Under the pieces are notes generated by a model, which was not told the DNA's origin, did not search any database, and saw only the letters and a list, made by a program, of their open reading frames with translations. Below, one piece after another: positions 35,822 through 39,389 of a stretch of DNA of 64,000 nucleotides. How positions within the stretch are numbered: position 1 is the stretch's first letter; the number at the start of each line of letters is the position of its first letter. The DNA lies in assembly GCA_016742275.1 (NCBI GenBank), contig JACVCD010000001.1, positions 124,001-188,000 on the forward strand. Reading direction: 5' to 3'. Position numbers and translations under genes: made by a program. The stretch is from Gemmatimonadaceae bacterium (GTDB taxonomy: Bacteria > Gemmatimonadota > Gemmatimonadetes > Gemmatimonadales > Gemmatimonadaceae).

Positions 35822-35894
<73 letters not shown>

Positions 35895-35982
35895 TCCCCG
35901 GTCGGCAGTAACGATGTCTTCCCTGACAGCGTTGGTGCGTACGGGTCCCTTCGGGCACGGTAGCCCGGTGGGGTGTAGGTTT

Positions 35983-36055
35983 GCGGGAATAGCTCAGTTG
36001 GTAGAGCACAACCTTGCCAAGGTTGGGGTCGCGGGTTCGAGTCCCGTTTCCCGCT
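35983..36055 (+). tRNA. tRNA-Gly (anticodon GCC)
   Basis: Acceptor GCGGGAA / TTCCCGC, anticodon loop TTGCCAA, T-loop GTTCGAGTC, discriminator T. CCA not encoded. Confidence 0.97.
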
Positions 36056-36090
36056 CTGAAGGGCCGGCTTGCCGGTGCAGTTCGATGTCT

Positions 36091-36164
36091 GGGTCGTTAG
36101 CTCAGTTGGTTAGAGCGCCACGTTGACATCGTGGAGGTCACAAGTTCGAGTCTTGTACGACCCA
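36091..36164 (+). tRNA. tRNA-Val (anticodon GAC)
   Basis: Acceptor GGGTCGT / ACGACCC, anticodon stem CCACG/CGTGG with loop TTGACAT, discriminator A. CCA not encoded. Confidence 0.97.
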
Positions 36165-36282
36165 TGTAGTGCCTGAGGGTAGTGTGGCGGCGGTGCGGCA
36201 GTAGCGAGCACTGGGCTGACCCACTAGGTTGTCGGTCCCGCGCCGCGAGGCAGGGGTGCAGTTCGCTGGTGAGTAGGTCGTT

Positions 36283-36356
36283 GCGCCTGTAGCTCAATTG
36301 GATAGAGCATCTGACTACGGATCAGAAGGTTGGAGGTTCGAGTCCTTCCAGGCGCG
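36283..36356 (+). tRNA. tRNA-Arg (anticodon ACG)
   Basis: Acceptor GCGCCTG / CAGGCGC, anticodon stem TCTGA/TCAGA with loop CTACGGA. A34 should be deaminated to inosine by TadA, which lets it read CGU/CGC/CGA. Confidence 0.97.
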
Positions 36357-36384
36357 TTGCAGTTTGTGGCACCAGAGAGTTGCA

Positions 36385-36458
36385 CGGGGCGTAGCTTAGC
36401 CCGGTAGAGCGCCTGCTTCGGGAGCAGGAGGTCGCTGGTTCAAATCCAGTCGCCCCGA
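36385..36458 (+). tRNA. tRNA-Pro (anticodon CGG)
   Basis: Acceptor CGGGGCG / CGCCCCG, anticodon stem CCTGC/GCAGG with loop TTCGGGA, T-loop GTTCAAATC. Last tRNA of the array; a lower-GC stretch begins just after it. Confidence 0.97.
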
Positions 36459-36473
36459 CTGTGTAAATAGAGG

Positions 36474-36517
36474 CCCGTCAACGATTTCATCGTTGGCGGG
36501 TTTTTGTTTTTTTGTGC
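36474..36517 (+). terminator. Intrinsic terminator of the tRNA array
   Basis: CCCGTCAACGA / TCGTTGGCGGG stem (one G-U), five-base loop, then TTTTTGTTTTTTTG. A textbook rho-independent terminator. Confidence 0.95.
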
Positions 36518-36608
36518 GATCGATTTCGAATCGACCGAATCGCGAACACCACGCATTTGGCTCGAATTTTCTGGACGAGCCCAACAGTAAGATTAGTACT
36601 GGCAGTGA

Positions 36609-37685
36609 CTACCCGAGTACCTGTAGCGGTACCATTCTACGGATAGTACTCGCGTAGTTTTCGTCAGATAAATAGAGCGAGATATTGTCCTTTAGCTTTG
36701 GCCAACTTAGTACTCCAAAGCCATACTCCATACGATCAACTCTTGGCGGCAGTATCGTGGAAGATATCAACAGAGACCTCAGCGTGGTCCCTGCGTTATC
36801 ACCCAAGTCCGCCCCAGCAGATCGCAAATGAGAAAGCGCGCGGGTAGCGAGGCCGGTAACGGCAGCCGTCGCTTGACTGGTCCCACCGAGCGGGATGTAT
36901 TGCTCGCCTGGCTCACCTAGCTCCGAAGAGCTTGCCCGAGCGGATGCTATCTGCTCTCCAAAACAAACAAGGTCAGGCTTAGCGAACTCGGTTCTCCGCT
37001 GATGAATAGTCGGACCAGATACCGCACAGTAGCGCTCTGAGCGCCTTGAGAGTACAGCGCTACGCCTGAATGGCCCTCGCGAACTGTGCTGACTGAGTCG
37101 GCTATCCCATTCAACAGAGCCGACAGACAATACCCTGGGTAGTCCAGCGGGGACGGAAATGCTTCCAGCAGCGGGGCCAGAGTTGCCAGCGGCAACCACG
37201 CACAAAATTCCCGCGTCAATCGCCCTCTCTATCGCCTTCTCAAGGTCGGTCAGTCGATCGGACCAGATCCAAGGTGGTTTCCCATCTGCCACAAGGCCAG
37301 AAGAGAGATTGATGATATCGGCCTTCAGCCGTATCGCCTCAAGAACCGCAGCGGCGGCGTTATCAGCGTCGAAGGATTGCCCCTTCCGGTGAACGCGCAG
37401 GGAATGCACGACACACTTCGGTGCAACGCCGGTAAAAGAAGCCTCAACAGCACCGGAGCCGGCAATGATGCCAGCTAGGTGACTCCCGTGTCCGTCCTCG
37501 TCAAACAGCTCTCGGCAAATCAGAAAACTCTGAGAATTCTCGGGCAAACATGCTGTGCATAGGTCGGGATGTGAAAAATCAACCCCTGAGTCAACAAGCG
37601 CCACCGCAACGTTCAAGCCTTGCGGTCCATCATTGTCGAGCTCTAGCAAATCGCGAATAGCATACATCTCAACAAGAAAGCGCAC
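36609..37685 (-). CDS. Subtilisin-like serine protease without signal peptide, 358 aa
   Basis: Family S8 with all catalytic elements: Asp32 in 'ALVDSGVDFSHPDL', His66 in 'DGHGSHLAG', oxyanion Asn168 in 'VVAAGNSGP', Ser270 in 'GGTSQATA'. No signal peptide, no prodomain and no transmembrane segment, so it is probably cytoplasmic. About 25 unusual residues (Arg/Ser-rich) are inserted between 'SSRGP' and 'KPDLV'. The start is GTG at 37685 directly after an in-frame stop; ATG at 37667 is possible. A propeptide-like ORF ends 49 nt upstream. GC content is visibly lower than in flanking genes, suggesting acquisition. Substrate unknown. Confidence 0.93.
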   Translation of the reverse strand: MRFLVEMYAIRDLLELDNDGPQGLNVAVALVDSGVDFSHPDLCTACLPENSQSFLICRELFDEDGHGSHLAGIIAGSGAVEASFTGVAPKCVVHSLRVHRKGQSFDADNAAAAVLEAIRLKADIINLSSGLVADGKPPWIWSDRLTDLEKAIERAIDAGILCVVAAGNSGPAAGSISVPAGLPRVLSVGSVEWDSRLSQHSSRGPFRRSAVLSRRSERYCAVSGPTIHQRRTEFAKPDLVCFGEQIASARASSSELGEPGEQYIPLGGTSQATAAVTGLATRALSHLRSAGADLGDNAGTTLRSLLISSTILPPRVDRMEYGFGVLSWPKLKDNISLYLSDENYASTIRRMVPLQVLG

Positions 37686-37734
37686 AGCCGAGGCCGTGCG
37701 CTACTCCTTGAACATCATTTTGTGGACGCTGACG

Positions 37735-38010
37735 CTAAGCTAGAGTCAGCTTACCGCCCAGATCGATAGAAAGGACTCCCGGAGCGCTCGCCAACGTATC
37801 AACAATGCGCAGTGGGATGACAGCCGAAATTGAACCGATCTCAGGCAAAAACCGGCGGACAGTCCCACCGAGATTTTCCAAAAGGTTCCGGATAGCGCAT
37901 GATTGGTCCGCTTCAACGCTGAGGACTACAACAGCCCGGAAGTGAGGCCCTTTCTGATGTAGCTCATCCAGCACCTCGCCGAAGACCATTGCTACATGTC
38001 TCTCTTCCAT
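37735..38010 (-). CDS. Free-standing subtilase propeptide/inhibitor-like protein, 91 aa
   Basis: The ATG at 38010 (MEERHVAMV) is preceded by AGGAGGT, although only four bases separate them. The ~91 residues fit an I9-type beta-alpha-beta fold: 'FRAVVVLSVEADQS', a helix 'AIRNLLENLGG', 'TVRRFLPEIGSISAVIP', then 'LASAPGVLSIDLGGKLTLA', the usual prodomain ending just before the protease. Here it is a separate gene directly upstream of a subtilase that lacks its own prodomain. It most likely folds and inhibits the protease in trans. I do not see a close named family, so the assignment is from pattern and context. Confidence 0.7.
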   Translation of the reverse strand: MEERHVAMVFGEVLDELHQKGPHFRAVVVLSVEADQSCAIRNLLENLGGTVRRFLPEIGSISAVIPLRIVDTLASAPGVLSIDLGGKLTLA

Positions 38011-38242
38011 ATGACCTCCTAGGTATCCCGATGAAGGAAATACTCTCCTTACTGAGACGCCTGAATGAACGAAATGTTGCATGAACTAGGCACCTTTGAT
38101 GACGTAACGCAAGCCATCAGCCCACGAAGGTCATAACGTTTGCCTAGAATCACTTAGATATTACGAAAAAAAGCCGAAGACTTCCTAATTTCATGGATCG
38201 CCCGCGTTGTATTAATACTTAGAGCAGCGGTAAGGAGATACA

Positions 38243-38314
38243 ATGCGCACCCTAACGGTTGATAGCACCGAGTCGCTTTTCGGTATCGGAGCTTGTCAGA
38301 TTCAATTGGAATGA
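38243..38314 (+). CDS. Putative 23-aa peptide with leader-like sequence
   Basis: An ideal ribosome binding site (AAGGAG, five bases before ATG) precedes a 23-codon frame starting MRTLTVDSTESLFGIGA. The start resembles double-glycine-type leader peptides (M-R-x-L-T ... G-x-G-A), but the frame stops shortly after. It is divergent from the propeptide/subtilase pair. It could be a real mini-gene, the truncated start of a longer precursor, or chance; no homologue can be checked here. Confidence 0.35.
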   Translation: MRTLTVDSTESLFGIGACQIQLE

Positions 38315-38546
38315 GCAGGAATACAAACGACTTTCTCTAATATGGACTCAAATGTCACCTGCGCGTCTGCTGCACTTCTCTGTGCATCGTCGTGGCCCTT
38401 GGCTAATGCAGCATAGCAACAGGTCCGAGTAACTAGATCAATCGTCTTCAGGCTCCTGCCCCTGTAGTAGGCCCCAATGTTTCGGAGTCGTCTAAATTGC
38501 CCCGAATTGTTGTAAACACGACAACAATCGAATCCGACGAAGGCGG
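38302..38546 (-). pseudogene. Possible gene remnant without start codon
   Basis: A minus-strand frame stays open for ~80 codons with plausible protein composition ('IDLVTRTCCYAALAKGHDDA', 'VTFESILEKVVC') and ends in TGA at 38302. It has no ATG, GTG or TTG in frame and its upstream side merges with the glycosyltransferase stop in another frame. It may be the decayed end of an unknown gene or chance. Otherwise 38011-38546 shows no gene apart from the small plus-strand ORF. Confidence 0.25.
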
Positions 38547-39389
38547 TCAGACAGCGAGCAATTGCTTGCGTGCACCAGACGGGCGAAGCAGACCCACATC
38601 ACACCAGCAGCTCCGCTTCTCGATCGTTGCGACGTAGCGCTCATGATTGGCTGGAAACGCCGCGCGCGTTGCCTCGGGATGCCACAAGTGAAAAGCGACC
38701 GCACCGAACTTGAAGTTGCGCCGCCGAATGCCCGCGTGAATGAGACGCGCCGCCATTTCACTGTCCTCGCGTCCCCATCCTTCGAAGCGCTCGTCGTAAC
38801 CGTTCACGGCCAGCAGGTCGGAACGCCAGAACGCCATGTGGCAACCACGCGTACGGCGATCGGGATCACTGGGGCCGCGCACCAATGACGACAGCATCGG
38901 CATGTAGAGACCATTGAGTCGATTCTTCAAACCGGACTGGAACAGCGAAACTTTTGGCTCCAGATCCTGCAACATTCTCGCGGTACGTTCCTGACTCATC
39001 ATGCAACGACTGCCCTGCACGTATGTCCCACGGCGCGCGAACGCCGCATGCGCTTCGACAAAACGCGGATGCAACACGATGTCGCCATCGATCTGCAAGA
39101 CATAGTCGCCCTGCGCTTGCCGAATGGCTTCGTTGCGAATAGCCGCCAATCGAAAGCCCTGATCTTCATGCCACACATGCTTGAGTGGCACCGGGAAATC
39201 CGTTTGGTGCTGCACCACCACCAAACGCGTTGCATCTCCGGAGCCATCATCAGCAACCAACACTTCGTCGGGCAACACATGCTGCGCACGCACACTGCGC
39301 AGAATCACGTCGAGAGCAGCAGGCCAGTTGTACGTGGCGATGATGAGTGACGTGGTCGGCCTGGAGGCCGGAAGTGTTGGGCTCTGCAT
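38547..39389 (-). CDS. Family 2 glycosyltransferase, 280 aa
   Basis: GT-A fold signatures: 'SLIIATYNWPAALDVIL' at the N-terminus, 'VLVADDGSGDATR', and the metal-binding DxD-type motif 'QIDGDIVLHP' followed by the acceptor region 'GYDERFEGWGREDSEMAARL', where the ED motif provides the catalytic base. 'CHMAFWRSDLLAVNGYDE' is typical of galactosyl- or N-acetylgalactosaminyl-transferase relatives. Soluble, no transmembrane segments. It probably adds a sugar to lipopolysaccharide or a surface glycan. It stands alone, 161 nt after the TonB receptor, with no other glycan genes nearby. Confidence 0.92.
   Translation of the reverse strand: MQSPTLPASRPTTSLIIATYNWPAALDVILRSVRAQHVLPDEVLVADDGSGDATRLVVVQHQTDFPVPLKHVWHEDQGFRLAAIRNEAIRQAQGDYVLQIDGDIVLHPRFVEAHAAFARRGTYVQGSRCMMSQERTARMLQDLEPKVSLFQSGLKNRLNGLYMPMLSSLVRGPSDPDRRTRGCHMAFWRSDLLAVNGYDERFEGWGREDSEMAARLIHAGIRRRNFKFGAVAFHLWHPEATRAAFPANHERYVATIEKRSCWCDVGLLRPSGARKQLLAV

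Follow-up and report, generated by a model that had tools for sequence, protein, structure and literature searches.

A predicted cytoplasmic subtilase and its separately encoded I9 prodomain in a Gemmatimonadaceae bacterium, a candidate protease lock acting in trans

A stretch of 64,000 nucleotides of Gemmatimonadaceae DNA (assembly GCA_016742275.1, contig JACVCD010000001.1, positions 124,001 to 188,000; hereafter the window, to which all positions refer) encodes on its reverse strand an S8 subtilase without a prodomain and, directly upstream, a 91-residue prodomain protein of the I9 type. The pair is best read as a split pro-subtilisin, in which the small protein would act in trans as a lock on a cytoplasmic protease, and we give this reading a probability of roughly 0.7. 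It rests on gene order, on the S8 and I9 identities of the two proteins, on conservation of the pair and on the register at which the I9 protein ends, all of which were observed in the analysis. If the reading is correct, bacteria use the I9 prodomain, the oldest trick of protease control, as a free regulatory protein that can be transferred to a sensor. The pair would then offer a simple two-gene test bed for the restraint and release of an irreversible cytoplasmic protease. Moreover, pairs like it would be candidates for a class of proteolytic effectors that escapes annotation by Pfam, since the I9 partner in the window lies below the cut-off of the I9 model.

The subtilase gene extends over 36609-37667 (reverse strand) from the favoured ATG and over 36609-37685 from an alternative GTG, giving proteins of 352 and 358 residues, respectively. 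In the alignment, the proteases of two relatives begin exactly at the position of ATG 37667, which is therefore the better start. The protein belongs to family S8, matching Pfam Peptidase_S8 (PF00082) with an E-value of 9.7e-38 and 130.5 bits against a cut-off of 21.8. An alignment of seven proteases shows the triad D26, H60 and S264 and the oxyanion residue N162 to be intact (352-residue numbering), these aligned residues being the ones that we take to be catalytic. The N-terminus lacks a hydrophobic segment (the 19-residue Kyte-Doolittle mean reaches at most 0.81 within the first 60 residues). A preliminary description of this DNA, made from the letters and a list of open reading frames, had proposed a subtilase with an intact Asp-His-Ser triad and with neither a signal nor a prodomain of its own, and both statements hold. 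To judge from its sequence, the protein is an intact S8 enzyme lacking prodomain and signal peptide, and it is predicted to be cytoplasmic.

The upstream gene (37735-38010, reverse strand) has AGGAGG four bases 5' of its ATG start, and its 91-residue product, predicted to be an inhibitor or chaperone in trans, also lacks a hydrophobic leader (highest 19-residue Kyte-Doolittle mean 1.38, for the segment starting at residue 58). As a single sequence, this protein has no I9, PADLOC, NCBIfam or PDB match; Pfam I9 (PF05922) does not match it at E-values up to 10, and has no match at 0.001 in the window's own genome. Single-sequence searches returned two weak plasmid matches (E 0.4 and 0.6) and, besides the protein itself, weak matches only among 298 genomes of the same phylum. 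It is an I9 prodomain nonetheless, seen once relatives are included. Subtilisin prosegments account for the best 21 of 27 rows when a profile of six sequences (the small protein and its relatives) is compared with the PDB (best E 8.1e-5), and for 21 of 23 rows with a profile of the four solo proteins (best E 0.0018), so that a relationship of the small protein and its relatives to known subtilisin prosegments is found at the level of sequence profiles. In addition, a profile built without the window protein recovers it at E 2.3e-4 among 19,559 ORFs. The AF2 model has a mean pLDDT of 81, with a core above 90, and an I9-like order of strands and helices. These profile and fold results bear out the earlier suggestion of a separate I9-like protein 49 nt upstream, a distance that becomes 67 nt from the favoured ATG.

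The end of the small protein is informative. Within pro-subtilisins, Glu69 and Asp71 of the prosegment cap helices of the catalytic domain (PMC6993865). The profile's acidic position aligns with Asp71 of the 77-residue BPN' prosegment, hence with six residues following it, and all four solo I9 proteins end six residues past this position. By this register, the last nine residues of the window protein (37738-37764, reverse strand) comprise an Asp at the first capping position, a Gly at the second and the final six residues to the stop, one of the two capping residues being kept. As the solo proteins end at the autoprocessing register, the stop codon sits at what would be the self-cleavage site of a pro-subtilisin. 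The gene boundary appears in the sequence to have replaced the autoprocessing site, which is the most telling anatomical fact at this locus. The C-terminal tail of a propeptide occupies the cleft in the manner of a product and influences inhibition (PMC10580911), and by analogy with known pro-subtilisin structures the nine-residue tail is predicted to sit in the active-site cleft in this product-like way; its last three residues have pLDDT values below 50 in the AF2 model.

The window protease belongs to a small clade, of which three relatives, besides the window's own member, came from the 298 same-phylum genomes and three more from 146 genomes of the order of one relative, G032. In a tree of 68 subtilases all seven cluster together (support 100%), and the branch to the window protein is long. 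They share the motif [PG]PWxW (PPWxW in five, GPWxW in two), represented in the window by PPWIW at residues 131-135 (37263-37277, reverse strand), of which P132, W133 and W135 are invariant in all seven. Six of the seven have an I9 domain encoded immediately before the protease gene, as a solo gene in the window, G106, G272 and G816 and fused behind TPR repeats in G032 and G807; in G815 no I9 gene was found upstream of the clade protease. Co-occurrence in homologues, on which the preliminary description had staked its reading, is thus present, and its frequency, together with the leave-one-out recovery of the window protein, argues that the pairing is not due to chance. All four catalytic residues are kept in six members. 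In the G106 protease (L032, 1501-2556) all four are lost (Asp to Cys, His to Leu, Asn to Asp and Ser to Ala); this genome keeps the upstream I9 gene nevertheless, and a pseudoprotease that binds without cutting is a possibility. Pairing is therefore not always tied to activity, as G815 has an active-type protease without I9 and G106 an I9 beside a protease without catalytic residues.

The identity of the TPR-fused I9 domains is less secure than that of the solo proteins. The solo profile matches them as weaker relatives (E 0.003 and 0.018), and leave-one-out profiles from all other members recover them at 3.3e-4 and 1.4e-4. Folded alone, from two sequences, the fused domain matches the Tk-subtilisin propeptide with a Z of 8.3, tied with EF-G domains, and Foldseek places PCSK9 and CspB prodomains among the first ten.

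Wider searches returned subtilases of other kinds. A scan of genome contigs and scans of viral sequences matched general S8 motifs, with no PPWxW among 80 and 80 loci; this test leaves GPWxW possible, yet none of the ORFs that these scans recovered had a score close to those of the clade. At an E-value of 1e-45, no clade member was found in 299 genomes of the phylum of G298 or in 199 of the phylum of G299, the best few candidates per genome being considered and no positive control included. When the window protease and two relatives were used to search plasmids, the matches listed were general subtilases. Viral contigs L123-L128 encode small subtilases (frames of 317-387 residues), with no I9 detected in or upstream of them by a profile of limited reach.

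Free I9 inhibitors are already known. Propeptides inhibit subtilases in trans (PMC10580911), and stand-alone I9 proteins that inhibit subtilases have been described from fungi, plants and protists, examples being POIA1 of Pleurotus, yeast proteinase B inhibitor 2, Arabidopsis SPI-1, Toxoplasma TgMIC5 and Plasmodium SUB1-ProM (PMC6993865). SUB1-ProM is encoded beside subtilase genes and inhibits one of them, SUB1, which carries its own propeptide (PMC6993865). The window resembles these cases in having a free prodomain-like protein, with an I9 fold by prediction, but its protease has no prodomain of its own and there is no I9 other than the free one; moreover, the pair is bacterial, predicted to be cytoplasmic and encoded in one probable operon. 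The targets of the other eukaryotic stand-alone inhibitors presumably carry their own propeptides. The present arrangement departs from the eukaryotic ones in that the protease lacks any other prodomain and the I9 domain can occur fused to a TPR protein. Compared with the pro-subtilisins (BPN', subtilisin E and Tk-subtilisin), the window has the same two domains in the same order, with the I9 part ending at the autoprocessing position, but they are encoded by two genes rather than one, without a signal peptide and with nothing to self-cleave. A search of the open-licence PMC literature yielded no description of a bacterial subtilase without prodomain that is accompanied by a free I9 gene, a weak negative.

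In the proposed split pro-subtilisin, the upstream gene would make a free I9 prodomain whose C-terminus corresponds to the would-be autoprocessing end. As the plug is not covalently joined to the enzyme, an inhibited complex could form without self-cleavage. Binding and inhibition, and likewise the trigger of the lock, we infer. The protease would turn active upon loss of the I9 protein, whether by turnover, sequestration or cutting by another protease. In G032 and G807 the I9 domain stands at the end of a TPR protein whose gene shares an operon with those of an ATPase-like protein and a small partner, which suggests that the lock may be released when the TPR part binds something.

Surveys of other subtilases provide a background for this arrangement. 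Pfam I9 gave 99 matches above cut-off in 58 of 200 same-phylum genomes, none in a frame shorter than 204 residues (the shortest being 204 and 264, the rest at least 343), so that these genomes contain no Pfam-visible free I9 gene of the size seen here. Among 157 distinct S8 ORFs, I9 was found in the same ORF in 20, in a separate upstream ORF in seven (six loci, one counted twice) and not at all in 130, although the I9 profile is limited in reach and those 130, G815 included, consequently say little. The 149 S8 ORFs outside the clade comprise 20 with fused I9 and, by the rule of the script, none with a separate upstream ORF; one of the 20 (L041, Chloroflexi) has a separate I9 copy as well. A search of 251 genomes of the phylum of G304 yielded eight close relatives of the L041 protease, and at six of these eight Chloroflexota loci the protease, which keeps its fused I9, is immediately preceded by a separate I9 ORF on its own strand. 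The loci with both forms are L256, L257, L258, L260, L261 and L262. One of the separate proteins exceeds the Pfam I9 cut-off (24.3 against 21.2 bits), and in all six the chain continues for five to eight residues beyond the Asp71 position, exactly six in three of them. The Chloroflexota group falls apart from the window's clade in the tree of 68 subtilases, suggesting either more than one origin of the free I9 or an early one.

The second I9 of the Chloroflexota bears on the strongest alternative, namely that the small protein does no more than help the subtilase fold, as an intermolecular chaperone that is later digested, and that the protease is constitutively active in ordinary protein turnover. 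In mesophilic bacterial subtilases the prodomain is an obligatory chaperone (PMC10580911). The window protease has no other prodomain, and the pair lies among ordinary genes in the window and in two relatives, all of which would suit such a role. However, the Chloroflexota have a separate I9 although the protease has its own prodomain, which folding alone fails to explain; a second copy of this kind seems hard to account for as a folding aid and easy as an inhibitor. In addition, the TPR-fused I9 of two relatives looks regulatory, and G106 has kept its I9 gene beside a dead protease. A role confined to folding is thus unlikely, and a lock acting in trans is preferred.

The preliminary description had also raised the idea of a maturation protease. 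In this form the protease, with the small protein as its dedicated chaperone, would cut a specific precursor in the manner of QhpE or the cyanobactin PatA-type enzymes. The subtilase does match the NCBIfam QhpE equivalog model (49.1 bits) and the PatA/PatG cyanobactin subfamily model (52.2 bits), but far below the cut-offs of 165 and 421.05 bits; the equivalog model for mycosins of type VII secretion gives 119.4 bits against 278.75. The clade-specific PPWxW, which by alignment probably adjoins the substrate-binding strand near the cleft, may point to narrow specificity. No substrate gene lies nearby: between 38001 and 38600, upstream of the pair, the longest other ORF encodes 57 residues and has nothing that supports it as a precursor peptide, and the neighbours vary between relatives. 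Maturation is therefore retained as a decidedly improbable reading beside that of an I9 lock.

The fold of the small protein raises a third alternative, that of a ferredoxin-like chaperone or adaptor of the NapD kind, unrelated to I9 and placed beside the subtilase incidentally. With the AF2 model as query, Foldseek ranks the Tk-subtilisin and BPN' propeptides second to fifth, behind NapD. The predicted I9 fold that the preliminary description called for is found, in that VIA matches the model to the Tk-subtilisin propeptide (2z57_B) with a Z of 10.1 and an rmsd of 1.8 over 61 residues, NapD being tied at 10.3. Pfam I9, as noted, gives no match. As predicted folds go, that of I9 is a common one and would not by itself decide identity. 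Sequence profile, gene position and end register decide for I9: the profiles pick subtilisin prosegments and not NapD, an I9 domain is encoded beside the clade protease in six of seven cases, and the end register fits pro-subtilisins, leaving the NapD-like reading very improbable. That a single pro-protease gene has been split by a frameshift or sequencing error, as two closely spaced ORFs in different frames might suggest, is scarcely credible, given that the same split occurs at four independent loci with differing spacings (one with a GTGA overlap) and that the window genes are separated by 49 nt (to GTG 37685) or 67 nt (to ATG 37667) with a stem-loop between them.

This predicted intergenic stem-loop (37679-37702, reverse strand) has 10 pairs and a weak T-rich tail on its 3' side, and the stretch folds better than 200 of 200 shuffles (z -4.7). 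Terminator-like sites in the region number four against 2.2 in shuffles (sd 1.8), which is not clearly above expectation. It could be suggested that the stem-loop sets expression of I9 above that of the protease. A scan of the region found no sigma-70-like promoter, and Rfam elements around the pair were limited to tRNAs.

The pair is bordered by tRNA-Pro on one side and a glycosyltransferase gene on the other. Five tRNA genes lie at 35822-36459, the last being tRNA-Pro (36385-36459, forward strand; tRNA scan and same-genus alignments), followed by a predicted terminator-like hairpin (36465-36509, forward strand). GC content is 0.50-0.56 in 1-kb segments starting at 36.0-37.5 kb and about 0.59-0.64 around them, in agreement with the earlier remark on lower-GC DNA right after a tRNA array, and the two genes have a GC3 of 0.54, compared with 0.66-0.78 in three neighbours. 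In all eight same-genus genomes compared, alignable DNA on the tRNA side stops at 36461-36512, just behind tRNA-Pro, and the pair's DNA is absent from the stretches examined, several of which stop short of the glycosyltransferase gene. The stretch of G180 does reach that gene, and its slot holds a MarR-type gene and another gene instead. The suggestion of an acquired element at the tRNA array therefore stands as regards a variable slot but not as regards an integrating element, as no integrase was observed next to the pair and a search of 36360-38660 for a repeat of the tRNA end, as a possible attachment site, found none. The content of the stretch behind tRNA-Pro (36461-38620 in the window; L253 in G019, L252 in G078, L247 in G180) varies among same-genus genomes. 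The same slot holds defence-like genes in two of them, HSDR_N in G078 (L252) and a PD-T4-5-like gene in G019 (L253). The one or two proteins examined from each of the slots of G039, G864, G073 and G180 were all ordinary.

Defence-like genes are found near the clade protease in four of the six relatives, in a set of hand-picked neighbours without a random-neighbourhood baseline. The G807 operon is flanked by a SAVED-PDDEXK gene (E 1.8e-198) and an Avs4-like gene (E 1.6e-116), and the 19 kb examined around the G032 operon encode a SAVED protein, an MBL/C25 protein and a Cas4-like nuclease. Near the G815 protease a Cas4-like nuclease and a DruE-like helicase are encoded, and near that of G816 a DUF4145 protein similar to the N-terminal part of a type I restriction enzyme. 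The genes examined around G106 and G272 were ordinary, and no defence gene, ATPase or TPR partner lies beside the window pair. The neighbourhood survey proposed in the preliminary description thus gave a divided answer, and its phage- or stress-triggered switch fits four relatives and not the window, G106 or G272. Near the G032 operon, L036 14547-17108 encodes one protein that combines an MBL-fold hydrolase with a C25-like peptidase (the latter at E 7.5e-5, just under its cut-off).

Bacterial conflict systems include proteases as regulated effectors beside NTPases (PMC7159879; PMC12799240), and S8 domains occur in one such system (PMC7159879). The parts of these two papers that were consulted mention no I9 partner, and the window pair has no NTPase, an ATPase-like gene being present only in the G032 and G807 relatives. 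Another of the closest known systems is IetAS, an AAA ATPase with a subtilase in phage defence, which the window resembles in its predicted cytoplasmic subtilase and in a weak match to PADLOC IetS (E 1.6e-7) that covers part of IetS. The locus is not an IetAS system, as no IetA-like AAA ATPase gene stands beside the subtilase, whose neighbours are the glycosyltransferase and tRNA genes. We know of no I9 partner for IetAS. Tentatively, and from the neighbourhoods of the relatives, the likeliest role of the pair may be that of a conflict or stress effector. It is more speculative, though possible, that the clade belongs to an immune or self-destruct protease family, whose lock, split at the autoprocessing site, would serve as a sensor-controllable antitoxin, solo or TPR-fused with an ATPase and partner in defence islands, and as an extra lock in the Chloroflexota.

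G032 and G807 share a four-gene operon encoding a protein of 441 or 442 residues (41% identical), a partner of 141 or 132 residues (38% identical), the TPR-I9 protein and the subtilase. The first protein may be read as HATPase-like, the HATPase match being marginal (E 0.083) in one of the two genomes and absent from the other; PDB profiles of this protein and of the small partner, which we take to be STAS-like, gave nothing useful. Besides G032, five of 254 genomes examined, the window's own included, have relatives of the first protein, each with the small partner adjacent and then a third gene of 178-235 residues, without TPR-I9 or subtilase. Similar three-gene sets occur on Pantoea, Vibrio and Spirosoma plasmids, the small-partner profile matching that of Spirosoma only. 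This module may have taken the I9-subtilase pair as its effector in G032 and G807. The recurring arrangement of an ATPase-like gene, a partner of about 110 residues and a third gene of about 180-235 residues is seen at L293 5420-8341 (contig C12 of the window's own genome), L294-L297 and L298-L300.
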